Shown here: positions 42,032 to 55,684 of the stretch, piece by piece
Layout: each line of letters opens with the position of its first letter
Numbering within the stretch: position 1 is the stretch's first letter
From: Gracilinema caldarium DSM 7334
GTDB taxonomy: Bacteria > Spirochaetota > Spirochaetia > Treponematales > Breznakiellaceae
DNA length: 64,000 nt
NCBI RefSeq assembly: GCF_000219725.1
Contig: NC_015732.1
Location: 1,054,001 to 1,118,000, forward strand
Direction of reading: 5' to 3'
Made by a program: the position numbers and the translations under genes
Notes under the pieces: generated by a model
The model's input: only the letters and a program-made list of their open reading frames with translations
What the model was told of the DNA's origin: nothing
Database searches by the model: none

Positions 42032-42108
42032 TTACCAAGTGCTTATATGACTATTATAGAAAAGTATTATTTTTTTTCTGTAACCGCTGTTACAAATTGA
42101 GTATTTTA
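42032..42108 (-). promoter_or_regulatory. 77-bp repeat copy 1: promoter with CRP/FNR-like site upstream of ferredoxin gene
   Basis: Nearly identical (one T difference in a T run) to 42980-43055. Read on the minus strand it holds a palindrome, TGTAAC-AGCG-GTTACA (42094-42079), and a perfect TATAAT -10 box (42058-42053) but no good -35 box. The palindrome centre lies about 40.5 bp upstream of the predicted start, the class II activator position. The ferredoxin ATG is ~68 nt beyond that start. Confidence 0.7.
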
Positions 42109-42170: not shown

Positions 42171-42923
42171 TTACGGTTTTGCTCCTAGTTTTTCCAATTG
42201 GGCAAGGATTTGGTTTATATTCCAGCGATAAACGATGGTCCGGGGTACGGCGTAGTGATCCAACTGGGGATCGGTGAAATCAACGGGCACAATGTGGGAT
42301 TTAGCTAAAAAAGCGTAGGAATAGCCGGCCTTAATTAACAGCTGACGAGCTTCGTCGGAACTAGCCCCAAAGGGTAATGCAAAATAGGGAACTGCCTTTC
42401 CTGTCCATTGGCTTATAAGGGGGCCCGGTTTTTCTATTTCGTCTCGACTTCGCTGGGGATCGCTTTCAAAGGCTTTTTTTGTCACATATTGATGGGTAAA
42501 GCCATGGGCCCCGATGATACACCCTAGGTCGGACAATTGCTTCACCACCTCCGGTCGGAAGGCGAACTTGCTTCGTTCCGCTAACTTAGCGCTGATAAAG
42601 AGGGTGGGTACGATGTGCCGGGGCAGTAAAACGTCTGTTACCACCGAGGGTACCGAGTGGTTCCCGTCGTCAATGGTCATAACAATATTTTTGGACCCCT
42701 GCACGTTTCCTGCCACCGCATCGTCCAAGGATACCCAATGGAATCCATACTGGGCGATTTTGTCCAACTGTTGTATAAATTCTTCTTTAGAAAAATCAAG
42801 GGAGGAGGTATGGGCCCCTAAAAACGTATGATACACTAAAATGATGACCTGATTGTTCGCTGAGAATGTCCAGGGGGCTATAATGAAAAGTAATAATAGG
42901 AGTAATACCGAGTTACGATACAT
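42171..42923 (-). CDS. Exported polysaccharide deacetylase (NodB family, CE4)
   Basis: About 250 residues. Signal peptide MYRNSVLLLLLLFIIAPWTF. The NodB motifs are MTIDDG (metal-binding Asp), GAHGFTHQYV (His pair) and FALPFGASSDEA. It would deacetylate a cell-surface or peptidoglycan polymer. ATG 42923 gives a standard signal peptide; a TTG at 42986 is less likely. The 77-bp repeat copy 2 lies ~57 bp upstream of this start, in the same relative position as copy 1 to the ferredoxin gene. Confidence 0.9.
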   Translation of the reverse strand: MYRNSVLLLLLLFIIAPWTFSANNQVIILVYHTFLGAHTSSLDFSKEEFIQQLDKIAQYGFHWVSLDDAVAGNVQGSKNIVMTIDDGNHSVPSVVTDVLLPRHIVPTLFISAKLAERSKFAFRPEVVKQLSDLGCIIGAHGFTHQYVTKKAFESDPQRSRDEIEKPGPLISQWTGKAVPYFALPFGASSDEARQLLIKAGYSYAFLAKSHIVPVDFTDPQLDHYAVPRTIVYRWNINQILAQLEKLGAKP

Positions 42924-42979
42924 GCGAAAGGATACCAAAGTGGTCTTAGGCCTGTCAATGACTGCTCGTCTCTTTCCTA

Positions 42980-43055
42980 TTACCAAGTGCTTATATGACT
43001 ATTATAGAAAAGTATTATTTTTTTCTGTAACCGCTGTTACAAATTGAGTATTTTA
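42980..43055 (-). promoter_or_regulatory. Repeat copy 2: promoter with CRP/FNR-like site upstream of deacetylase gene
   Basis: 76-bp second copy of the repeat at 42032. Palindrome TGTAAC-N4-GTTACA at 43026-43041; minus-strand TATAAT at 43006-43001. It also lies 19-13 bp before the plus-strand TPR gene. Confidence 0.7.
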
Positions 43056-43737: not shown

Positions 43738-44613
43738 TTAGCGGGGAATACAGAGGGCAGCGTAATGGACTGATTTGTCCTCCTCTTCCCAGATACCCCG
43801 GGACGAAGCCTGTCCCAGGAGATGCGGTTTTGGAAGGGGCGCTACTTCCCAGAACCGGCACTGCAGCAGGGCGGCAACCCCAGCGGCTCCGCAGGCCGTA
43901 ATGTGACCCTGCTGGGCAAGCTGTAATAACTGTGCCCCGTCACCTGTCTGTACAAGTTCCAGGAATCGGCGGCCCTGCTCAAAGGCTTCGTCATTATCAT
44001 AATGGGCCGAAACATTAGTGGTGGCGATAAAAAGGGTTTTGTCCAATTCATCAGAAAAACACAATTCCAGAGCTCGGCTCAGGGCATGGATATGATTTGT
44101 TCGTGAGGTGCCGATAAGTATGGGAATGATTGAAACCTGGGGAAATGCATCGGCTATCCAGGGAAGAACTACCTCAAGGGAATGTTCAGAGAGGTGAGGT
44201 ATATCATTCAGTTCAAAAATGGTACTACAGGAGAGAAGCTCATCAACCTTATTCTTATGAACCCAGAGATCTCCTATAGGGGTCTCAAAACTGTCTGATT
44301 CGCTTACATAGATCCCTTCCTGGGTACTGGCATGGAGAGGGCCTAATAAAACAACCTGTTCTATAGGACGCTTTCTAACCAAGGAAAAGGCACGACCCAA
44401 GAGAAGACCAGAAAGCTCCCATGCTGCATGGGGTACGATAATACCAAGGGGATTACAGTCGGTTCTCGTTTCGGGTCCCTGCATGCCACTGATTTCATAA
44501 TACCGGTTCAAAGCAATTCGAAGAGCGGCATCTGTATCAGGGTAAAACATCCCTGCCATAACGGGACTTCGGCTTCGATGGTATTCGGCAGGACTGGTAT
44601 TTTGATATTGCAT
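43738..44613 (-). CDS. amrB: MEMO-like protein (AmmeMemoRadiSam system protein B)
   Basis: A 291-residue MEMO-family protein. Landmarks: SPVMAGMFYPD, PHAAWELSG (usually PHAGYxYSG), LLGPLHAS, EHSLEVVLPW, and TTNVSAHYDN, which give the metal-site His residues, and ITACGAAGV with the Cys. The family resembles extradiol dioxygenases but its bacterial reaction is unknown. An AMMECR1 gene from the same three-gene set lies at 30506-31090. It converges with the TPR gene. Confidence 0.9.
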   Translation of the reverse strand: MQYQNTSPAEYHRSRSPVMAGMFYPDTDAALRIALNRYYEISGMQGPETRTDCNPLGIIVPHAAWELSGLLLGRAFSLVRKRPIEQVVLLGPLHASTQEGIYVSESDSFETPIGDLWVHKNKVDELLSCSTIFELNDIPHLSEHSLEVVLPWIADAFPQVSIIPILIGTSRTNHIHALSRALELCFSDELDKTLFIATTNVSAHYDNDEAFEQGRRFLELVQTGDGAQLLQLAQQGHITACGAAGVAALLQCRFWEVAPLPKPHLLGQASSRGIWEEEDKSVHYAALCIPR

Positions 44614-44686
44614 GTTCTTATTTTAGGTCGTACTCTACATATTTGCAAGTAGACCAGTCAACCAGATGCTTTTTTTCAAAACCTCT

Positions 44687-44715
44687 TTGAAATCTTAATT
44701 ATTTCAGGATATACT
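44687..44715 (+). promoter_or_regulatory. Predicted adenylate cyclase promoter, leaderless
   Basis: TTGAAA (44687-44692), a 17-bp spacer and TATACT (44710-44715) put the transcription start at ~44722, which is the A of the ATG. No Shine-Dalgarno sequence precedes it. Confidence 0.65.
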
Positions 44716-44721
44716 GTTTTT

Positions 44722-46491
44722 ATGAGTATCCGCCTTAAAATTATAATTGTTGTTATACCGCTTTTAATTGCCTCTGTGGTGCTTGTTGGTGTTTCTTCCT
44801 ATTTTTCTGCCGCTTCTGCGGTAACCCAGCTCGCGGTGGATTTTTTAACTTTTAAGGCAGAGGAACTGGAGACCTATGCTAACAGTCAGTGGAATCTCCT
44901 GGTGGATAACGGCTTTGTTGGCCGATCGGATATGGAACAGGCAGCTCAGGCGGCGGTAGAATCCTTTGGCCGCAATATTATGCGCAGTTCTACCGAGGCA
45001 ATCTTTGCTATCGATAGGGATGGCAAACTTGCTCTCCAGGTGGGATCTCTCCCGTTGGGCAGCTCTCGAGGGACCTTGGAAGGGGGGGTACCGCAAGCCG
45101 CCGGTAATCTGCAAGGGGGCGGCAATCAGCAGTCAGGCTCAGCAGCAGGGGCCGCAAACCCAGTGGATCTCGCCGCCGAGGTAGCATTACTTCAGCAGAC
45201 TGTGCCTGCAGGCCAGCGGGGATTCATCACTATGAAATTGGGGGGCATCGAACGGGTTGCTGTTACCTTTCCCTTTGCCCCCTTTGGCTGGCAGGTCTTT
45301 GTATCCGAACAGCGGCAGGCCTTTTTCGGTGATGTTGAAACCATCGCTCAGACGACCCTTTACATTTTAGTCGGGGCTACCCTTATCAGTATACTGTTCC
45401 TCCTTCTTATGACCAATTACCTGACCCGGCCCATCGAAAAGGTTGTCCAGGTCATGCGGCATATTATTGAATCTAACAACCTCTCTGAGCGGGTTTCTGT
45501 ATTGTATAAGGATGAAATTGGCCAGCTTTCCCATACCTTTAACCTCATGTTGGAGGAACTAGACCAGGCTTATAACCAGATTAAGAAATATGCCTTCGAG
45601 GCAGTAGTAGCCCAGAAACGGGAAAATCGGATCCGCAACATTTTTCAGCTCTATGTTCCTAAAGATGTGATTGATGAGGTCTTTACCAATCCCGATAAAA
45701 TGCTTGTGGGAAATAACCGGGATGTGGCAATCCTCTTTTCTGATATCCGCAGTTTTACCACCATCTCTGAAAAGATGGCTCCCGATGCGCTGGTCAACGC
45801 CCTAAACCGCTATTTTTCCATTATGGTCGATGTGATCGTTGCCCAGAATGGTATGGTGGATAAATACATAGGCGATGCTATTATGGCGGTCTTTGGGGCT
45901 CCTGTCAGCCATGGTCATGATGCCCTCGATTCGGTGCTGGCAGGCCTTGAAATGACCGAATCGCTTACCATTTTCAATGATGAGCAGAAACGTACCGGCG
46001 GGCCGGAATTTAAAATTGGTGTGGGCATCAATTATGGTATTGTTACCGTAGGTAACATTGGTTGTGACAAAAAAATGAACTACACCGTTATCGGCGACAC
46101 GGTGAACCTGGCATCCCGGCTCGAAGGGCTCACCAAGCATTATCATCAGCCCATACTTTTTTCTGAATATGTCTATGAACACATACAAGGCAAGATTCCC
46201 TGCCGCATGGTAGATAAGGTGGCGGTTAAGGGTAAGACCCAGGGAGTGCCCATCCTGACCGCCCGCCGGGAGCTGACCAAAGCCGAAGCAGAGGCCTGGA
46301 AGATTCATGAGGAGGCGGTAGATCTTTATTACCGCCGGTCCTTTACCCGGTCGGCAGAACTCTTTGAAAAAATACTTACTATATTGCCCGAAGACGACAT
46401 CGCCCTGCAATACCTGGAACGGTGTCAGCGATATGCCAAAAATCCTCCCCCCACCGAATGGGATGGGGTAGAGGTAATGACGGAGAAATGA
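44722..46491 (+). CDS. Membrane-bound class III adenylate/guanylate cyclase
   Basis: A 589-residue protein: TM1 (~7-29), a periplasmic sensor (~30-215) with a Gly/Gln/Ala-rich stretch at ~122-150, TM2 (~218-240), HAMP (~240-295), and a class III cyclase domain at ~325-510. The metal-binding Asp pair is in ILFSDIRSF and MVDKYIGDAIMAVFG. MNYTVIGDTVNLASRLE is the substrate and transition-state region; Lys and Asp positions suggest cAMP. A C-terminal helical/TPR-like tail follows. It starts an operon with four exported proteins. The cAMP product could act on the CRP-like sites nearby, an inference only. Confidence 0.92.
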   Translation: MSIRLKIIIVVIPLLIASVVLVGVSSYFSAASAVTQLAVDFLTFKAEELETYANSQWNLLVDNGFVGRSDMEQAAQAAVESFGRNIMRSSTEAIFAIDRDGKLALQVGSLPLGSSRGTLEGGVPQAAGNLQGGGNQQSGSAAGAANPVDLAAEVALLQQTVPAGQRGFITMKLGGIERVAVTFPFAPFGWQVFVSEQRQAFFGDVETIAQTTLYILVGATLISILFLLLMTNYLTRPIEKVVQVMRHIIESNNLSERVSVLYKDEIGQLSHTFNLMLEELDQAYNQIKKYAFEAVVAQKRENRIRNIFQLYVPKDVIDEVFTNPDKMLVGNNRDVAILFSDIRSFTTISEKMAPDALVNALNRYFSIMVDVIVAQNGMVDKYIGDAIMAVFGAPVSHGHDALDSVLAGLEMTESLTIFNDEQKRTGGPEFKIGVGINYGIVTVGNIGCDKKMNYTVIGDTVNLASRLEGLTKHYHQPILFSEYVYEHIQGKIPCRMVDKVAVKGKTQGVPILTARRELTKAEAEAWKIHEEAVDLYYRRSFTRSAELFEKILTILPEDDIALQYLERCQRYAKNPPPTEWDGVEVMTEK

Positions 46492-46493
46492 TA

Positions 46494-47747
46494 ATGAAGG
46501 GTATTCCTCCGCGCCGGTTTTTTGGTCTCCTATTTCTCCTGGCGGCAGGCTCCTTTCGTCTTTTTGCTCAGGAACAATCTGCTCAGGAGCTCAAGGGGCA
46601 GGCTGTGCTTCAGGTTGATGAACGGACAGTGTTGCTGCTCTGGTCTCAAAACAGTTCGGGAATGCCTCGTTCTGATGCAGCCCAATACATGACCTACCTG
46701 ATTCAGAGCCTCCGTTCTGCCCTGAATGAGGCAGGATACCCCACGGTGGATAACCTGCAGATTGATTCCTTAACCGATAAACCCTCAGAGCTGGCCCTTA
46801 CCTACGGGAAGGAGCGGGCCCTTCGATGGGTATTTATACTTAATCTTACCCTGTCTGATCGGAGCCTTTCCTGGACCATCGGTGCCTATGATACAAAACG
46901 GGAAGCCCTCCGGGCAAGCGACAGTTTTTCTACCTTTCCGGGCCTTTCTGCCCTGCCATCTCTGGATGATTCAGCCCGAGGGCTCGTACAGGCATGGCTT
47001 GCTTCTATTGCGGCAGATCCAGAGGTGGTTAATTTGGCTGAATATTCCCAATTGTTTACGGGACCCCAGGATGGTATAGAGGTTTGGTATGGTCCTGCAA
47101 AGACGGGCGTTCTTGCGGGTACTCTAGAAGGAGGAACGCTGGAAGGACGTTACCTTCCATTCCCTCAAGATCAACCGCTTTTTATTACACTATACAAAGA
47201 GGGGTTCTGGCCCCGTTCTATGATACTCCCCAAGGGTGTTACCTCAAAAACAATAAAGCTTCCGGCTCTGCAAAAACAATCGGTTCATGTGTGGGGGGTA
47301 GGAACAGGTCGGGGCCGTTTGTTAGGGGCTACCTATTTCTATCGCTATTATCCCCTTCCTGATCGGCTCTTTTTCCGTTTTGATAATGCCTTCTGGGCGG
47401 GATATAACTTTACTCCAGGATCAGTTCCTTTCTGGCATGATGAACTTCGCTTCGGTATGGGGCTTTACCTGCAAGACCCGGTGGATTCAGCACTGCGCCT
47501 TGCCATCGGGACCGGTGGTTCAGGAATTATAAGCTACCTGCCAGGGCTAGAAGAAGGCTCTGTATCGACCAACCTGGATATGCTTTTGGACCCGATCTGG
47601 TTCAGCCTCGAGTACCACTTCCCCCGCTGGGCTCTTTTTACGGAATTTCGGCTTCCCTATGCAACCGGTTCAGGCTTTCTATCCCAGGGCTGGCTCGAAG
47701 CCTCCAATGGGGGGCCCTTTTTCCTTATAGGAGTGCTCTTTAAATGA
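46494..47747 (+). CDS. Exported, probably outer-membrane protein (pair 1)
   Basis: About 417 residues with signal peptide FFGLLFLLAAGSFRLFA. The first half (~30-180) is an alpha/beta domain resembling proteins that define a temporary periplasmic activity (LTYGKERALRWVFILNLTLSD). A PEGA-like segment follows (EVWYGPAKTGVLAG, PLFITLYKEGFWP). The last third has alternating hydrophobic strands ending in FFLIGVLFK, like an outer-membrane barrel. It has GGAG eight bases before ATG 46494 and overlaps the next gene. The protein at 48790 has the same layout, so they are probably paralogues. Function unknown. Confidence 0.7.
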   Translation: MKGIPPRRFFGLLFLLAAGSFRLFAQEQSAQELKGQAVLQVDERTVLLLWSQNSSGMPRSDAAQYMTYLIQSLRSALNEAGYPTVDNLQIDSLTDKPSELALTYGKERALRWVFILNLTLSDRSLSWTIGAYDTKREALRASDSFSTFPGLSALPSLDDSARGLVQAWLASIAADPEVVNLAEYSQLFTGPQDGIEVWYGPAKTGVLAGTLEGGTLEGRYLPFPQDQPLFITLYKEGFWPRSMILPKGVTSKTIKLPALQKQSVHVWGVGTGRGRLLGATYFYRYYPLPDRLFFRFDNAFWAGYNFTPGSVPFWHDELRFGMGLYLQDPVDSALRLAIGTGGSGIISYLPGLEEGSVSTNLDMLLDPIWFSLEYHFPRWALFTEFRLPYATGSGFLSQGWLEASNGGPFFLIGVLFK

Positions 47748-48787
47748 TGAATCAATTACTTTTTACAGGGAGGCATTGCAAAAACTACGTTCTTGCAGGT
47801 TTTTTGATACTAAGTCTGATTATCTTCGGTATTGTTTCCTGTGAGTTATTCAAAGAAGATTATTTTCCTGCCTATTTGAGTCAAGCCCAAGCAGTAAAGG
47901 ATCTTACTAGTATTACAAAAGCCGCAGGCATTTCTGCATTGGCAACCGTGGGGTTCCTGCAGTTTATTCCTGTACCGGCGATTCAGAAAACCTATATTGT
48001 TCTGGGACTTCACCAAATTTCAGGGCCACCCGCCATAGTACTCCTCGACAGTTCAGATCTCTCGGTTATTAAGGCTTTTACCAATTTACCAGCTATAGGC
48101 AAATTTGCAATGCTCGATATGAATGGCTATATTGCTACGGCCTATGAGAATACACGTGTTATCAGAATTGATCCTGTTGCGTTGACATTGAATTTATTTG
48201 ATCCAGTTAATAATACACCCTATTTTAGCCAAACCGGTTTTAGTCTTTATTCACTTTCTATAACAACTGCGTATCTCTGTGAGATGCGTGAAAATGATAT
48301 TGCATTATCGATTTATAATAATGATTGGGCTTTCTCAATACTCTACGCGAAAGATACCTTTTTTGACAATCAGCCTGCTTCTCAATTCAGTCTCCTCGAT
48401 CTGTACTACGATGGGACCAGGATCTATATGGCCCTTAATAACAGGTATACCAATAAGGGCTATATTCTTCGCTGGGACGTTATTGCTCAATTTACAAATG
48501 ATTTTACTAGTGCTACATATATTGGAGAAAACGCTCAACAGATTCTTGAGGTCCCGGTTTCCAAAGAAGAGGGGGCATTCCTTACTTCTGCTGGCTACAT
48601 TGTACAGTTCAATGACGATAGAAAAGGTCTCGGCCGCTATGCCATGGATCGGGACAATACCGAACTGGACCGCTTCCTTTTGCCTAATGAGTTTCGGGGG
48701 AAAATCAGCTTTGCTCCCGATGGGAGCCGTTGGCTCCTTTACGATGAGCAAAAGGGCTCCCTAGCGCTCCTTCGACCCTGGTGGTAG
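47744..48787 (+). CDS. Lipoprotein of unknown function (pair 1)
   Basis: 347 residues. Hydrophobic signal FLILSLIIFGIVSC gives a lipobox with Cys ~33. The remainder looks like beta-propeller-type repeats (LLDSSDLSVIKAF; YENTRVIRIDPVALTLN; GRYAMDRDNTELDRF; APDGSRWLLYDEQ). ATGA overlap with the preceding gene. Partnered with the exported protein before it. Confidence 0.7.
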   Translation: MMNQLLFTGRHCKNYVLAGFLILSLIIFGIVSCELFKEDYFPAYLSQAQAVKDLTSITKAAGISALATVGFLQFIPVPAIQKTYIVLGLHQISGPPAIVLLDSSDLSVIKAFTNLPAIGKFAMLDMNGYIATAYENTRVIRIDPVALTLNLFDPVNNTPYFSQTGFSLYSLSITTAYLCEMRENDIALSIYNNDWAFSILYAKDTFFDNQPASQFSLLDLYYDGTRIYMALNNRYTNKGYILRWDVIAQFTNDFTSATYIGENAQQILEVPVSKEEGAFLTSAGYIVQFNDDRKGLGRYAMDRDNTELDRFLLPNEFRGKISFAPDGSRWLLYDEQKGSLALLRPWW

Positions 48788-48789
48788 GT

Positions 48790-50115
48790 ATGACACGACA
48801 AACCTGTTTAGCTCGTATACTGCATCGTTTGGCAAAAAATATATTCCCGGGTTGGTTTAAGGGCTTTTTATTGGGGCTCCTGGTGGTTTTACCGATATTA
48901 CCTCTTTTTGCCCAGGATCCCTCGGTTCCCTTGGCCCTTGGACCGATAGAGTCAGTATCCCTCCGATCCTTTGTAGTTCTATGCTCTGATACAATAGAAT
49001 CGTCCTGGGCGGCATCCTTGATATATTCCCTGGGAAAACTGGAGCGGGTTCGGGAAGTTTATCTCTGGCCTGAACCGGTTCCTCAGAGTACAGCCCCTAA
49101 GGTCCTTGCCGAGGCCCTCCGCTGGGCCAGCCTTAAGGACATGGGCTTTGTGCTTTATGTAACCAGGACCGCACCCGGAAAACCTGAATCCGAGGTTGCT
49201 TCCCGCGAAGGTTCTTTTGACATACACTACCGGGTGTTCCGGGTGCTGTCGGCCCAGGAGATCATGGCCGCCAGTTTTACAGCGGACCTTCCAACGGAAG
49301 AAGAACTGCGAAGCACCTTCTGGCTTCCCCTGGTGGCGGCCATGGACACCCTCGAAGCCCAGCGGAGGGCCGGCCGCCTTACCATTCGAGGTGTTCCAGG
49401 AAGCAAGCTGTTTGGTTTTACCAAGGCTCCAATACAACTTGATAACACCGGTGAAGCTACTATAACTGTAGAGATTCCCGGTACGTATCGATACAGGGCC
49501 TTTGCTTCGGGTTACGAAGCCCGTTCAGGGGTCCTTACCCTGCTTGACAGCCCATCGGTCCTGCAATTGGAACAACCTGCTCAAAGTCCCTGGTATTTTG
49601 AAAGTGGAGCCCTTATGGGGCAGTTTGGCGATGTCTGGATACACCGGCATATTGGAAATTCTATATGGTTAGGATTAGGTTTTCAGCAATACTGGATTGG
49701 GTTATATTTCCCAAACCAAGAGGATTTAAAATATACTAGTAACTATACTAATTATTTTGTTTCTTTACCGCTCTTGGAACCAGGAATTCAGGCGGGATAT
49801 TACCTGAGCGATGGTCTTTCTATTATAAAGCCCTATGTCTCTGGGACCTTATTCTTGAGGGTTAATACATCCCTCTTACAGCTTGATCCTGTTGCATTTA
49901 TGGCAATTTCAGCCCAAACGGGTCTAGAATATACATTACTAACAAAATTACGCCCCTTTATTGAACTTGGGTTCCGTTTTTATCCTTTCTGTGATGGTCT
50001 CTATCTGGCCGCAAGTCGGGGTGGGGAAGTCCGGGCTCCCTCTACGTTTCTATTTTCTGACTCATGGTATGTTGATATACCTATCCTGAGATTAGGAGTG
50101 AGGTTTAATCTATGA
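48790..50115 (+). CDS. Exported, probably outer-membrane protein (pair 2)
   Basis: About 441 residues, with signal segment FLLGLLVVLPILPLFA. Same layout as the protein at 46494: an alpha/beta N-terminal domain (IESVSLRSFVVLC; SLKDMGFVLYVTRT), a PEGA-like middle (GVPGSKLFGFTKAPIQL; GTYRYRAFASGYEARSG), then amphipathic strands with aromatic girdles and a final LRLGVRFNL. Start ATG 48790 follows the previous stop by two bases and has a weak GGTAGG. Overlaps the next gene by 4 bases. Confidence 0.7.
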   Translation: MTRQTCLARILHRLAKNIFPGWFKGFLLGLLVVLPILPLFAQDPSVPLALGPIESVSLRSFVVLCSDTIESSWAASLIYSLGKLERVREVYLWPEPVPQSTAPKVLAEALRWASLKDMGFVLYVTRTAPGKPESEVASREGSFDIHYRVFRVLSAQEIMAASFTADLPTEEELRSTFWLPLVAAMDTLEAQRRAGRLTIRGVPGSKLFGFTKAPIQLDNTGEATITVEIPGTYRYRAFASGYEARSGVLTLLDSPSVLQLEQPAQSPWYFESGALMGQFGDVWIHRHIGNSIWLGLGFQQYWIGLYFPNQEDLKYTSNYTNYFVSLPLLEPGIQAGYYLSDGLSIIKPYVSGTLFLRVNTSLLQLDPVAFMAISAQTGLEYTLLTKLRPFIELGFRFYPFCDGLYLAASRGGEVRAPSTFLFSDSWYVDIPILRLGVRFNL

Positions 50116-51098
50116 AAAAAAATGTTGTGGGACTTTTTTCTAGTATCATACTTTTAACTTCCTGTTGGCACCCACCCTTTGACCCAGATGTTTCCGCAAG
50201 TGTGCTGAGTGCCCGTAAGTTAGGTGACCCTGTGTTGGAATTCAAAGTTTCGTTACCCTATGAGGCACGGTATGGATACTTTATACCATGTAAATCTAGC
50301 TATACTCAGGGGGGGTGGATTACCAAGGAAGCTTATTCGCTGAGAATATCATATGTTACTTTTGATCCAATCTTTAAGACCGGTGTAATCCTTAATAAGG
50401 AACAGTTGAATGGATTTTCCTTTGCGGGCCTTCAGGTTTTCCCTCATCCTAATGATTTACAAGCACTCTATATAAGTCATCCTGATATTAAAGGATGGGT
50501 AAGGATAGACTCCACTGGGTTTGAATCCTATCAAACGACCGACGATCTCTTTCTTGGGGCGGGGGCTACCTTAACGTGGAGTGGAACTGAAGAGGTTGGG
50601 ATCCTCTATATAGCTTCCTATGGAGATGGTGAACAAATCACGTTAACACGCCACGATATGACATCTTCTAATGAAGTTTATTATCCTCTTCCTCCCCAGT
50701 TACCGGCTGCCCCTATCTTTGCAGCCAAAAACGATTATGGTGCTTATCTTTCAGGGACCCTTACGGACGGTACACCGGTAACCTATTATTGGTTTGAAGA
50801 AGAAGGGCCGGTTCAGCTTCCTTTGGGACGGGCTATGACAGGTCTCCTTTCGGATGGCAGACTTTTGGCAGACACGGGGGATAGGCTCTATATATATGAT
50901 AAGGATGGAAATGAATGCTTTGCCATTGCTACAGGTTCCCTTAAATTTTCTTTTGAACGATACGATGCAGTAAATAGCCGGTGGGTGTCTGTGTTTACGA
51001 GAACCCTCCAAATTGCAGCATCCAATAATGATGAATGGGATTATCTTATATCTATCTATGAGATACCTACTGCGGATTTGGAAAAGCTCAAGCTGTAG
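50112..51098 (+). CDS. Lipoprotein of unknown function (pair 2)
   Basis: 328 residues. Signal MKKNVVGLFSSIILLTSC with lipobox Cys18. The rest is beta-rich, with blade-like segments (WSGTEEVGILYIASYGDGEQ; LLSDGRLLADTGDRLYIYD) resembling the propeller-type lipoprotein of pair 1. Coupled by an ATGA overlap to the exported protein before it. Last gene of the cyclase operon. Confidence 0.7.
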   Translation: MKKNVVGLFSSIILLTSCWHPPFDPDVSASVLSARKLGDPVLEFKVSLPYEARYGYFIPCKSSYTQGGWITKEAYSLRISYVTFDPIFKTGVILNKEQLNGFSFAGLQVFPHPNDLQALYISHPDIKGWVRIDSTGFESYQTTDDLFLGAGATLTWSGTEEVGILYIASYGDGEQITLTRHDMTSSNEVYYPLPPQLPAAPIFAAKNDYGAYLSGTLTDGTPVTYYWFEEEGPVQLPLGRAMTGLLSDGRLLADTGDRLYIYDKDGNECFAIATGSLKFSFERYDAVNSRWVSVFTRTLQIAASNNDEWDYLISIYEIPTADLEKLKL

Positions 51099-51110
51099 CG
51101 AGTACGGATG

Positions 51111-51140
51111 AAAAAAGACAACCGCCGTCATTCGGCGATT
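51111..51140 (-). terminator. Rho-independent terminator of the downstream minus-strand gene
   Basis: On the minus strand AATCGCCG pairs with CGGCGGTT across AATGA, then GTCTTTTTTC. It ends transcription of the membrane-protein gene at 51154. Confidence 0.6.
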
Positions 51141-51153
51141 GAGCCAGGCAATC

Positions 51154-51810
51154 TTAATCTCTGAAAAGGGTTTCACCCTTTACGAGCCAGGAAAAACCGA
51201 AGGCCCAGAGGGCCAGGGTCTCCAGGATGAGCACCGGTGCCCAGTGTCGCAGGAAGGTATACTGCAGGAATAGCATATACAGCACTATTCCCGCAAGGCT
51301 GGCTATGATAATAATGCCGCAAACCCGGTAAATAGTATTTCGGGCAAGCTTTTGTGGTCCCGGTATTTTAGTTCCGGTTTTTGTAAACAGAAAATATGAA
51401 TTATAGGCTAACAAGAGAAAAAACAGAAATGCCCATGCCAGGTGCAGGGTTCCTGATATAGCTGGCGGCAGTTGAAATACCCCCAGCGGCCGGGTATCAT
51501 CGATGTGAGCTATGGTGGGGAACAGGGCAACACCGATAGCAAAAAGACCTGAAAGATTGGTAACCCAGTTATCTATCGAATCGTATCCTTTATAACTTAT
51601 TAAAAAGAGACCCACTGCCCAAAGGATACCCACGAAGACATCCTGCATGTTGCTATGGTAATAGGAACTGATAGAGCCTAGTATTCCATTGCCTGGTTGT
51701 AAGTATCCCCCTAAGATCAGCACCACAGGCAGGGCCATACCTAATACACCGATAAGCCTTCGCAGAGCTTTGTAGGAAATAACAATACTTTTATTCCGTT
51801 TTACAGCCAT
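51154..51810 (-). CDS. Multi-spanning membrane protein of unknown function
   Basis: 218 residues with six or seven hydrophobic helices (LIGVLGMALPVVLILGG; VFVGILWAVGLFLI; GLFAIGVALFPT; LAWAFLFFLLLAYN; IIIIASLAGIVLYMLF; PVLILETLALWAFGFSW). The conserved-looking loop SISSYYHSNMQDVFVG and GYDSIDNWVTNLSGLFA recall a family of uncharacterised bacterial membrane proteins. No catalytic motif is obvious. Confidence 0.7.
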   Translation of the reverse strand: MAVKRNKSIVISYKALRRLIGVLGMALPVVLILGGYLQPGNGILGSISSYYHSNMQDVFVGILWAVGLFLISYKGYDSIDNWVTNLSGLFAIGVALFPTIAHIDDTRPLGVFQLPPAISGTLHLAWAFLFFLLLAYNSYFLFTKTGTKIPGPQKLARNTIYRVCGIIIIASLAGIVLYMLFLQYTFLRHWAPVLILETLALWAFGFSWLVKGETLFRD

Positions 51811-51876
51811 TGGAGACTCCTTTTCTAGCCTTCATGGTAGACCATACCCATCGGGGGGTATGCGGCGTACTTTCCT

Positions 51877-54261
51877 CTAGCGCAAGCCTCGCTGGAGTGC
51901 ATCAATATAGGACAACATTGGAGCATTATCTTTAAAACGGGTTTTTAAGTCCTGGAAATATCGGGTACGGCTGGTTTCATCCTTTAATTTAAAAGCCGTA
52001 TCAGCTATGGTCATGGCATTATACAGGCTTTCTTTTTGACCTGCTTCGATATAGGCCCGTTCGTATCGTACAATACGATCCCGTAAGTCTGGGAAAACAC
52101 GTTGAACCGAAGTATTAGTTAAGAACGTGTCAAGCTGAGATCGGGCTGCAACTAAACTACTGTTACCACCCTGAGAAAGGATCCGGTCTTCCTCTCCCTG
52201 ATACGATCGGTATGCTTGTCCTAGGGCATCATATTGAGATGCGATTTGGCTTAGGCGTTGATTTTCCTGTCTGAGTTGGGCAAGGTCCTGCTCCAAGGTT
52301 GTTTGGGCAGTTCCTCCGGCGGTCTGAGTCCCGCTTCCCGTGGCACTCGTACCTGCAGTCCCTGCAGGTAGTGTTCCAGCTTGCCCCGCTAGTATCTTAG
52401 ACTTTTGCCGTTCTTCTTCTAGGAGCCGTTCCAATTCTGCTATTTTACGGTCCTTTTCCTGTACATTCTGAGTTGAACCGGCTTTATAAGTATTGAGCTC
52501 TGCAATAGTTTTTTCAAGATCCGCGGTAAGAGATGCTATTTTGCTGTCCATTTCACGCATCTTTTGGGTTGTTTCTGTATTTGTCTGTTCAGCTTCCCTG
52601 ATCATATTGAGTATTGCCGTATCAATCCCTTCCATGGCAGAGTTGATCTGCTCCGCATGAGGATAACGGCGCAGCAAATTGGCAAACTGTTTTATTGCCT
52701 CCGTCCAATTTCGCTGATCAAGGGCATTGTTGCCACGGCGCAAAAGAGTTCGAGCATCGTTGGTTTCCGTGGTAATTGCATTGGCTCTGTTTTGCTCTAG
52801 CGCCAGCGAGGTTAAACCTTGGGTGAGCTGAAGGCTGTCTTCTACGGAAAGTCCTAAGGCTTGTAATGCTTCACTATAGGCCATGCCAGCAGTCGTATAA
52901 TCCTTGTTTTTTTGGGCCGTTGTAGCTCTGCTAAGGGCTTGTAACGCTATCTGTATTCCCTGTTCTTTTGTACCTAAATTTCGGTTCATAAAGTACTGAT
53001 GGGCCTCAGTTATTTCAGGAATTCGGTTTAATGCCTCCTGGTATGCCGCAGCAGCCTTTGCAGTATCGTTTTTTTGTAAAGCGGCTCTGCCTTGCTGTAT
53101 TGCAGATCGGATCGCCGCCAAGGCTTCTGCTTGGGCAAATAGTAGATTGGTATCAATACTACTCCGTTCAACTTCAAAGCGTGCCATTTGGCCAATTATG
53201 TCTAGGGCAAAAAGATCGCTGCTTCGTCGTTTCTGTAAGGAGGAATGTGTTGCTATGGCTGGATCGTTCAGTATGGTTTTCATACTGGTAATGTTTTTTA
53301 AGGCTTCGTCATATTTGCGTTTTTGAAAATTGCTCTGTATAGCCTGATAAAGTCCTGTAATCTGATCTTCTGCGGCCTCTGCAGCCCGACGCTGTTCATC
53401 AATCCTGGCTAATTCTTTTTTTGCCTCTTCTAAACTAGCACTTACCCTCGCCGCGGTACTAGCTAATTCCTGGTTTTTTTGTTCCAGGTTGCTGCGGAGC
53501 TGTTGTTCCCGTTGACGAGCCTCTTCGAGTATTTTTTGCCGTTCAACGTTTAGTGTGGCAATATTGTTGGAATATTCCTTCCGTAATTTAGCATAGGATG
53601 CTTCTGCGGCAAACCGCTCCTGCTCTAACTGTTTTTTAAATTCATCAATCTGTTTCTGATAAAAAGCCATTCGTTCAGCTTCAAATTTTTTTAATCGTTC
53701 TTGTATAACCGCTTCTGAGAGCCCCTGTTTTAAAAGGCGTTCCCGTTCCTGTTCTACTTCCTTTTTTATGAGTTCTTTAAATTCTGCTTCTTTTTGAGCG
53801 AGCCGTTCTTCGAAGGAGCTTTGCAATGATGCCTGAGTTTTTTCGAGCTGTGCAAGACGAGCCTGTAATTCATAAATTTCCTGTTCTTTACGGGCAAGCT
53901 GTCCTTCGGCTTCTTTTTTAATTTCCTGAATGAGTTTCCCCTCAGCGCTGTTGATGGTTGTTCCGGTTTGTTGTATTTCTGTGGTCCGTAGGGAAAAAAG
54001 CTTATTAAGACCATAAAGTCCAAGGGCTGTGGTGCTGATGATGAGTATATTAACAACAAGGGGAAAGAAGAATCCCCGTTTCTGGGCTTTGACCGAAAAA
54101 GACGATGTATCAAACCGTTGCCGGTTTTGTTGCGTAATTTTCTCTATTTGTGAAATAATTTCTGCTCGATCTTCTGGGCTAATTCCTGTGGTCGTATCGG
54201 TTTCTGCGAATTCATTGTGAATCGTATCTTCTGCTTTTTTTAGAAGACCACTGTGCTTCAT
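51877..54261 (-). CDS. Coiled-coil and TPR membrane protein of unknown function
   Basis: 794 residues. A short cytoplasmic N-terminus, one TM helix (~65-87, FPLVVNILIISTTALGLYGL), then coiled coil at ~100-300 rich in Glu, Gln, Lys and Arg, TPR-like repeats at ~305-550, a second coiled coil at ~555-620, a Gly/Thr/Ala-rich linker (~625-655) and a helical C-terminus. It looks like a structural or scaffolding element tethered to the inner membrane. I do not recognise a named homologue. It lies 19 bases after the RqcH gene. Confidence 0.75.
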   Translation of the reverse strand: MKHSGLLKKAEDTIHNEFAETDTTTGISPEDRAEIISQIEKITQQNRQRFDTSSFSVKAQKRGFFFPLVVNILIISTTALGLYGLNKLFSLRTTEIQQTGTTINSAEGKLIQEIKKEAEGQLARKEQEIYELQARLAQLEKTQASLQSSFEERLAQKEAEFKELIKKEVEQERERLLKQGLSEAVIQERLKKFEAERMAFYQKQIDEFKKQLEQERFAAEASYAKLRKEYSNNIATLNVERQKILEEARQREQQLRSNLEQKNQELASTAARVSASLEEAKKELARIDEQRRAAEAAEDQITGLYQAIQSNFQKRKYDEALKNITSMKTILNDPAIATHSSLQKRRSSDLFALDIIGQMARFEVERSSIDTNLLFAQAEALAAIRSAIQQGRAALQKNDTAKAAAAYQEALNRIPEITEAHQYFMNRNLGTKEQGIQIALQALSRATTAQKNKDYTTAGMAYSEALQALGLSVEDSLQLTQGLTSLALEQNRANAITTETNDARTLLRRGNNALDQRNWTEAIKQFANLLRRYPHAEQINSAMEGIDTAILNMIREAEQTNTETTQKMREMDSKIASLTADLEKTIAELNTYKAGSTQNVQEKDRKIAELERLLEEERQKSKILAGQAGTLPAGTAGTSATGSGTQTAGGTAQTTLEQDLAQLRQENQRLSQIASQYDALGQAYRSYQGEEDRILSQGGNSSLVAARSQLDTFLTNTSVQRVFPDLRDRIVRYERAYIEAGQKESLYNAMTIADTAFKLKDETSRTRYFQDLKTRFKDNAPMLSYIDALQRGLR

Positions 54262-54280
54262 AGGCTCTTCCCACCTTTCG

Positions 54281-55684
54281 TTAAATATCGCTTCGACACT
54301 GCTCTAATTCTTTTAATCGGCTTTCTTCTATTATAACGTGAAGATTTCTTTCTTGTGTAGGTAGTACAAGCCCTTTTGGGCCATTTTTGGCTCGCCTGAG
54401 ATACTTCACCGCTGTGTAAAACAGGTCGCCCTCTCCATTATTTCGGCCCTTGGAATAAAAGAGGGCAAGGTTTCCTGCATCTAATAATATATCCAGGGGG
54501 ACTGTTTTGCCAGGGCGAGCTTTAATAAATACATAGGATCCGGGGTAATCCCGGGCATGGAGCCAAAGGTCAGAACCTTTTACGTAGTGGCGCAGAAGGT
54601 CGTCGTTTTCTGTTGCATCTCGGCCAACGATCAGCGTCCAGCCCTTTCGCAAAAAAGTGAGGCCTGGACGCTTTTTATCTTCCGGTTTTATCACCTGCCG
54701 TTGTTTCTGGAGGGCCTTATGAAGCCGGAGAGGATTTTCTTCTGCCAAAAGTTTGACCAGTTCCGCCTCGAGCCGTTTCTGTTCAGCCTCTCCCCGTTCT
54801 ATTTCTTCTACTACGTCCTTAAGGCCGTGCTTTGCTTTGTGATATTGTTCGTAATAGGCTTCGGCGTTTGCCTGGGGACTTTTATGAGGATCTAGTTTAA
54901 TGCGTACAGTCTCATCGGTATAAAAGTTAATGCCTTCGAACCATGCATCACCCTGGTGTATTTGGTACAGGTTTGCCATGAGGATATCCCCGTATTCTTT
55001 CAGCGTGTTTCCCTTTTTATAGGCTGCTTCTTTTTCCTGGAGCCGCTCCAGGGATGCCGCGAGACGGCCCAGGCGGCCTTCGTAGAGTTTGCGGACCTGC
55101 TCCCGCAGGGCTTCTAGGGACAGGGCTCCGCCATGTTCGGCATAGTAAGCGTCGATTTGTTCGTTAAAGGTGCCCGGCCCTTCAAAAGTGCGGATTTCAA
55201 ATTCCCGTTGGGGCCGAGAAGCGGCAGTCTCCTCGGGAACATAGCGGCCGCCGGTTATTTCTCCCCGTCGGGGGCTGCGGCGCATCACGTCCAAAATCGT
55301 TCCTGTATCATCGGTTACAATGACGTTGGCCGCATTGGACCAGAGCCGGAGGTACATGCGATAGCGCAGGTCTCCCCGCTGTATGCTGATCCGCACAACC
55401 CGATCCGTTCCCAGCTGAACCGCTTCGGTGATCCAGCCGTTCACGATGCGGGATTTAAGGAATTCTGCAAACCGTAAGGGTTTGTCCGGTTTCGGTACCG
55501 CCCGGTAGGTGGCATGGAGCCTGCAGGCTCCCGGGGTGAGGGCGATGAGGAGGGTAGTGGCCTTCCCCTCTTTGTAAAGGTGGAGGGCAAGTACATCATA
55601 AGCGCTTTGTACGACCCGTTGGATCTGGGAACCGCTCAGGTTCAATTCCGTGAGGACTAGGTTTATTTCTTTCCAGTTTAAAGA
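54281..55684 (-). CDS. rqcH: Ribosome quality control protein RqcH (NFACT family)
   Basis: About 467 residues. NFACT-N at ~1-170 (LSGSQIQRVVQSAYDVLALHLY; CRLHATYRAVPKP), a coiled-coil middle (~215-330) and NFACT-R near the C-terminus (IVGRDATENDDLLRHYVKGSDLWLHARDYPGSYVFIK). RqcH binds stalled 50S subunits and adds alanine tails. ATG 55684 has GGAG upstream; the frame can extend to 55717. Older annotations call such proteins fibronectin-binding. Confidence 0.92.
   Translation of the reverse strand, partial: SLNWKEINLVLTELNLSGSQIQRVVQSAYDVLALHLYKEGKATTLLIALTPGACRLHATYRAVPKPDKPLRFAEFLKSRIVNGWITEAVQLGTDRVVRISIQRGDLRYRMYLRLWSNAANVIVTDDTGTILDVMRRSPRRGEITGGRYVPEETAASRPQREFEIRTFEGPGTFNEQIDAYYAEHGGALSLEALREQVRKLYEGRLGRLAASLERLQEKEAAYKKGNTLKEYGDILMANLYQIHQGDAWFEGINFYTDETVRIKLDPHKSPQANAEAYYEQYHKAKHGLKDVVEEIERGEAEQKRLEAELVKLLAEENPLRLHKALQKQRQVIKPEDKKRPGLTFLRKGWTLIVGRDATENDDLLRHYVKGSDLWLHARDYPGSYVFIKARPGKTVPLDILLDAGNLALFYSKGRNNGEGDLFYTAVKYLRRAKNGPKGLVLPTQERNLHVIIEESRLKELEQCRSDI

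Follow-up and report, generated by a model that had tools for sequence, protein, structure and literature searches.

The window, by which we mean the whole 64,000-nucleotide stretch of Gracilinema caldarium DNA that was analysed, belongs to a genome that consists of one contig of 3,239,340 bases and carries at 44722-51098 five plus-strand open reading frames, in the order cyclase, g2, g3, g4 and g5 (Table 1). ATGA overlaps with the preceding stop mark the starts of g2, g3 and g5 (46488, 47744 and 50112), and g3 and g4 either overlap by 7 bases or are spaced by 2, depending on the g4 start chosen. An earlier note on this DNA had described five overlapping or adjacent genes in this order, the last four of no known family. 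The coordinates and the visible overlaps agree with that description, and Pfam and NCBIfam name only the cyclase (HAMP and class III domains), neither giving a family for g2-g5 of the window.

Table 1. Features of the operon and its surroundings in the window
Feature	Position	Strand	Description
Promoter-like TTGAAA-17-TATACT	44687..44715	+	Consensus match only
Cyclase	44722..46491	+	Two TM segments, extracytoplasmic domain, HAMP, class III catalytic domain (Pfam; TM by hydropathy)
g2, exported protein	46488..47747	+	Modelled TolB-N-like domain, beta segment, 8-stranded barrel
g3, lipoprotein with predicted beta-propeller	47744..48787	+	Structure model
g4, exported protein, g2 paralogue	48781 (GTG) or 48790 (ATG)..50115	+	Profile comparison
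g5, lipoprotein	50112..51098	+	Lipobox-like signal peptide
TM, coiled-coil, TPR protein gene	51877..54261	-	Convergent to operon; putative member of the unit

The promoter-like sequence lies 6 bases upstream of the cyclase ATG, and such a site is retained 6-8 bases 5' of the ATG in three distinct upstream sequences. Its nearness to the start codon suggests that the operon may be transcribed as a leaderless or nearly leaderless message. Farther upstream, a palindrome, TGTAACCGCTGTTACA, occurs at 42079-42094 and 43026-43041, 947 bases apart and nowhere else in the genome, its two copies flanking an ORF at 42171-42986.

Predicted products of the operon

The Guanylate_cyc domain of the cyclase scores 95.3 bits against a curated cut-off of 21.9. 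Six residues (D341, K381, D385, T455, N462 and R466), at what we take to be the key class III positions, namely the two metal-binding Asp, the Lys and Thr/Asp for adenine, the Asn and the Arg, are present in 73 of 73 cyclase sequences. The protein is predicted to be a membrane-bound class III adenylate cyclase that should make cAMP. It shares its catalytic domain, HAMP and the six residues with other class III adenylate cyclases with HAMP, but its extracytoplasmic domain, at about residues 35-206, matches no Pfam family, and a Cache domain search of nine of the cyclases returned one weak dCache_1 match (E 0.014). We know of no class III adenylate cyclase with operon partners like those found here.

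By profile comparison g2 and g4 are paralogues (probabilities of 95.5 and 97.5), a relationship that gave no match in pairwise BLASTP. The structure model of g2 (mean pLDDT 88) consists of a TolB-N-like domain, a beta segment and a barrel of eight strands that extends to the C-terminus. The N-terminal domain aligns with TolB (2hqs_B; Z 11.3, rmsd 2.9, 116 aligned residues), a match of fold only, and equally with FlgT (Z 11.3, rmsd 3.2, 131 aligned), and the barrel aligns with OprF (Z 16.6, rmsd 2.1, 128 aligned), leaving residues 189-257, the beta segment, outside all structure matches. A sequence search of g2 and g4 against solved structures gave nothing significant. In the model g2 is an outer-membrane barrel that carries a TolB-N-like periplasmic domain; a fold in common says nothing of function. 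The layout that the earlier note proposed for both exported proteins, an alpha/beta domain followed by a beta segment and a barrel-like end, is thus borne out by the model for g2 and extends to g4 through homology to g2. The description of the middle segment as PEGA-like was not upheld: Pfam PEGA (PF08308) is absent at E 0.05 from all 30 g4 and 28 g2 members searched, and profile comparison with three PEGA proteins reached probabilities of only 0.1 and 2.3. Compared with OmpA/OprF-type and other 8-stranded barrels, g2 has the same number of strands but places its periplasmic part, which is TolB-N-like, in front of the barrel, and no Pfam family for the OmpA C-terminal peptidoglycan-binding domain is found in g2 or g4.

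The lipoproteins g3 and g5 begin with signal peptides that by eye are lipobox-like, up to Cys33 and Cys18, respectively, and both cysteines are invariant among the aligned relatives. The structure model of g3 is a beta-propeller (pTM 0.82) that matches the NHL domain of Brat (Z 16.0, rmsd 3.8, 253 aligned residues); TolB is not among the 50 structure matches listed for g3, which rules nothing out. Both lipoproteins had been thought propeller-like, and this is modelled for g3 only, no Pfam propeller family being found in 14 g5 members. Homology of g3 and g5 was considered and rejected, as profile comparison finds the signal peptide alone in common, control comparisons of g2 with g3 and of g4 with g5 being likewise negative; by this measure the two are not detectably related. 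The suggested single duplication of a protein-lipoprotein pair thus applies to the exported proteins and not, as far as can be detected, to the lipoproteins.

In TolB itself, a single soluble chain carries both a TolB-N domain and a propeller. The g2 protein has the TolB-N fold but ends in a barrel, and the propeller is encoded by the next gene. As domain and propeller would be held by a barrel and by a lipid anchor, respectively, the modelled g2-g3 pair looks like a TolB divided into two chains and anchored at the outer membrane. Through the homology of g4 to g2, the g4-g5 pair may be a 'split TolB' of the same kind.

Conservation of the gene order

A set of loci chosen without regard to the module was obtained by a scan with the cyclase linker alone, which gave 80 named loci, the best 80 of 174; 69 of these were informative, the other 11 having less than 1500 bases 3' of the cyclase. 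Among the informative loci, g2 lies directly 3' of the cyclase in 47 and is absent there in 22 (best 80 of 174), the cyclase being well conserved at the latter also. The 47 comprise 14 full operons, 4 with g2-g3-g4, 22 with g2-g4 and no lipoproteins, and 7 whose contigs end early. Wherever it could be judged (40 of 40 loci, again from the best 80 of 174), g4 follows g2 in the same order and on the same strand. In relatives the start codon closest to the stop of the preceding gene was chosen, so that counts of gaps are biased towards overlaps. The window's own genome has another cyclase locus (L107) that, like L103, lacks the module.

A single-sequence search of 146 genomes of the order (E <= 0.01) found g4 in 35 and g2 in 34. 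In families f4 and f5 and in some members of f1, iterated profiles on the fetched loci showed the whole series cyclase-g2-g3-g4-g5 on one strand; other genera of f1 have cyclase-g2-g4 and lack the lipoproteins. When 344 genomes of the phylum were searched by profile, 20 gave a g2 match, and the search reached families f6, f8, f12 and f18, in which the operon order was seen again, g5 or g3 not being found in some. The five-gene operon is real and its recurrence goes well beyond what chance would give, and the free variation of neighbours among relatives that would have spoken against a common module is not seen. That the module always stands next to a cyclase is nearly true. A clear g2 is present in 33 genomes of the order, and in 28 of the 32 with visible flanks the cyclase adjoins it (in one the contig ends first); the four exceptions are G023, G066, G062 and G115, and remote g2-like pairs occur in G022 and G030, which have no cyclase orthologue. 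The named loci and the genomes overlap in their assemblies (L154 and L071, for example, are the same contig), which makes the two sets non-independent.

The convergent coiled-coil gene downstream of the operon is present in 43 of the 80 loci (best 80 of 174), including 19 of the 22 without the module. At 8 loci lacking the module the cyclase directly faces this gene, and at 10 others, mostly of deeper lineages, the gene lies upstream and divergent. The coiled-coil TPR gene is thus a long-lived neighbour of the cyclase, either downstream and convergent or upstream and divergent. At L205, L224 and L230, where the module is absent, opposite-strand genes near the cyclase encode true PEGA and TPR domains.

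Dependence of the module on the cyclase

When the module was called by g2 or g4 at E <= 1e-10, it was found in 35 of 146 genomes of the order, all 35 of which have a cyclase orthologue; the cyclase is also present in 24 of the remaining 111 genomes (Fisher 3e-18, with kinship uncorrected). Some assemblies hold two cyclase copies with the module beside one only (e.g., L164 and L227). As the cyclase is often found without the module and clear modules are never found without the cyclase, we regard the cyclase as the core component and the module as an accessory input to it; a dependence in this one direction speaks for a module that serves the cyclase and not the other way round. Together with the recurrent synteny and the fold models, the co-occurrence agrees with the earlier proposal of an envelope module tied to the cyclase, whose expression may accompany cAMP signalling. 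There are exceptions: G023 and G066 keep g2-g4, their sole cyclase match being a more distant copy elsewhere, and remote g2-like genes occur in G022, G030 and G089, which lack a cyclase orthologue.

These distributions also bear on the idea that the module links or stabilises the outer membrane in a Tol-like manner and that its place behind the cyclase is inherited and has no function. The TolB-N-like domain, barrel and propeller folds would suit such a role, as would the lack of any match to TIGR02800 (TolB) in the window's genome and of any over the cut-off in the 146 genomes of the order. However, all 35 of the genomes in which the module is clear possess the cyclase orthologue, and many relatives live without the module; we consider this explanation distinctly unlikely.

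Evolution of the operon

In a quick tree of 72 cyclases, made without a mixture model and with two long branches (L217 and L220) that meet, 21 of the 23 lipoprotein-less rows fall within one clade of 29 (SH-aLRT 100) that is nested among full operons and also holds 8 rows without the whole module. Tree labels were given to the incomplete loci L156, L159, L175 and L221, whose contigs end inside g2, and some other incomplete loci received the label full on the strength of a visible g3; A1-A4 contain complete as well as partial proteins. The placement of the lipoprotein-less rows in one nested clade indicates that g3 and g5 were lost together. In these termite-gut lineages the joint loss of both lipoproteins was followed in places by the loss of one barrel (in one group) or of everything (in L187 and a group of seven). 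The barrel loss is seen in L174, L180, L183 and L208, where g4 keeps its periplasmic part but stops short of the barrel, at a new C-terminus that is similar among the four.

Distances for the cyclase, g2 and g4 increase in step with one another (r 0.87-0.95), and inheritance looks mostly vertical. Such descent, and a coiled-coil neighbour that is equally long-lived, would fit a gene order that persists by descent only, with five products that do not act together. This we regard as very improbable, since the gene order and its close packing survive where the mean protein distance exceeds 0.7 for both g2 and g4, and across families f1, f4, f5, f6, f8, f12 and f18, and since g3 and g5 disappear jointly. 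The dN/dS values of the five genes against a close copy in G019 are 0.08-0.40. At catalytic distances of 0.3-0.4, mean sensor distances are 0.53 for full operons, 0.62 for reduced ones and 0.60 for loci without the module, the pairs being non-independent; from these values the sensor domain of a cyclase with the module does not appear clearly more constrained.

A possible input to cAMP synthesis

We tentatively suggest, as a reading that is possible but short of probable, that outer-membrane 'split TolB' units are an accessory input to the cAMP cyclase, the operon products forming a unit that would span the envelope. The inner membrane would hold the cyclase, with its extracytoplasmic domain and, by sequence, intact class III residues. 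The two pairs would lie at the outer membrane, respond to envelope state or to a ligand, and contact the extracytoplasmic domain of the cyclase, perhaps with the convergent coiled-coil protein; contact would adjust the cAMP made inside, which CRP-type regulators would read. In favor of such a unit we count the synteny and co-occurrence, the g2/g4 paralogy, the folds, the catalytic residues, the correlated distances, the joint loss of g3 and g5, the periplasmic part that g4 retains after losing its barrel, and the 11 matches to cNMP-binding domains in the genome, which are possible cAMP readers. Against it we count the retention of the cyclase without the module, the sensor domain that is not clearly more constrained with the module, and the exceptions G023, G066, G022, G030 and G089. 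In the stronger form, a trans-envelope cAMP receptor in which barrels, TolB-N-like domains and propeller lipoproteins drive the cyclase by contact, possibly via the coiled-coil TPR protein, the proposal seems to us fairly unlikely.

The module could instead be an output, a set of outer-membrane proteins linked to the cyclase through a common transcript and through feedback by cAMP, with no physical contact. The tight overlaps, the one conserved promoter-like site 5' of the cyclase and the same 11 cNMP-binding domain matches would all suit an output. Running counter to it, the window has 15 CRP-like sites where 19.3 are expected, and none 5' of the operon, by a consensus from which the spirochaete site may differ. 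We hold an output to be somewhat unlikely.

If 'split TolB' units do feed into the cyclase, they would give an outer-membrane protein a way to signal to a cyclase in the inner membrane, and the cell interior could by this arrangement be kept informed of the outer envelope. Of four unannotated gene families that are conserved in many spirochaetes, two now have proposed folds and a third is placed as a paralogue, and the cyclase is a likely partner for all four. We found no description of this operon in the papers searched, most of them from open journals.

Relation to other outer-membrane proteins

The main text of PMC12204202, in which 'spirochaet' does not occur, describes outer-membrane proteins with a TolB-like domain and a propeller in one chain and proposes that TolB originated from such a protein by loss of the barrel. 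The proteins described there and the present operon both combine a TolB-N-like domain with a propeller and an outer-membrane barrel, and barrel loss of the kind proposed there is seen in relatives here. They differ in layout: there the three parts form one chain, whereas here a lipoprotein gene of its own encodes the propeller, two copies of the exported gene are present and a cyclase gene opens the operon. The TolB-N-on-barrel form and the loss of the g4 barrel in one clade bear on the origin of TolB as that text presents it. PMC8407342 describes 8-stranded barrels of T. pallidum as single-domain; both cases are of small outer-membrane barrels in a spirochaete. A relation to T. pallidum TP0483-TP0485 was considered and set aside: the 1.14-Mb genome G013 has no g2 or cyclase-sensor match, its cyclase matching over the HAMP and catalytic parts and the surrounding 16 kb giving no g2-g5 profile match.

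Variation among close copies

When L068, the close copy in G019, was compared with 43901-54300 of the window in 200-base steps, 43901-49700 was 86-100% identical and 49701-51100 was 62-83% identical, the drop at about 49700 coinciding with the start of the g4 barrel. Such unevenness points to recombination with a breakpoint close to where the barrel begins, and mixing during assembly of the draft genome might also account for it.

Additional copies of the module were observed as well. At L111 (G233) a g5 fragment lies 5' of a second g2-g3-g4-g5 set, as if the modules were in tandem, and L069, in the G019 draft genome, is a second, diverged module copy with g2 split over two overlapping frames.
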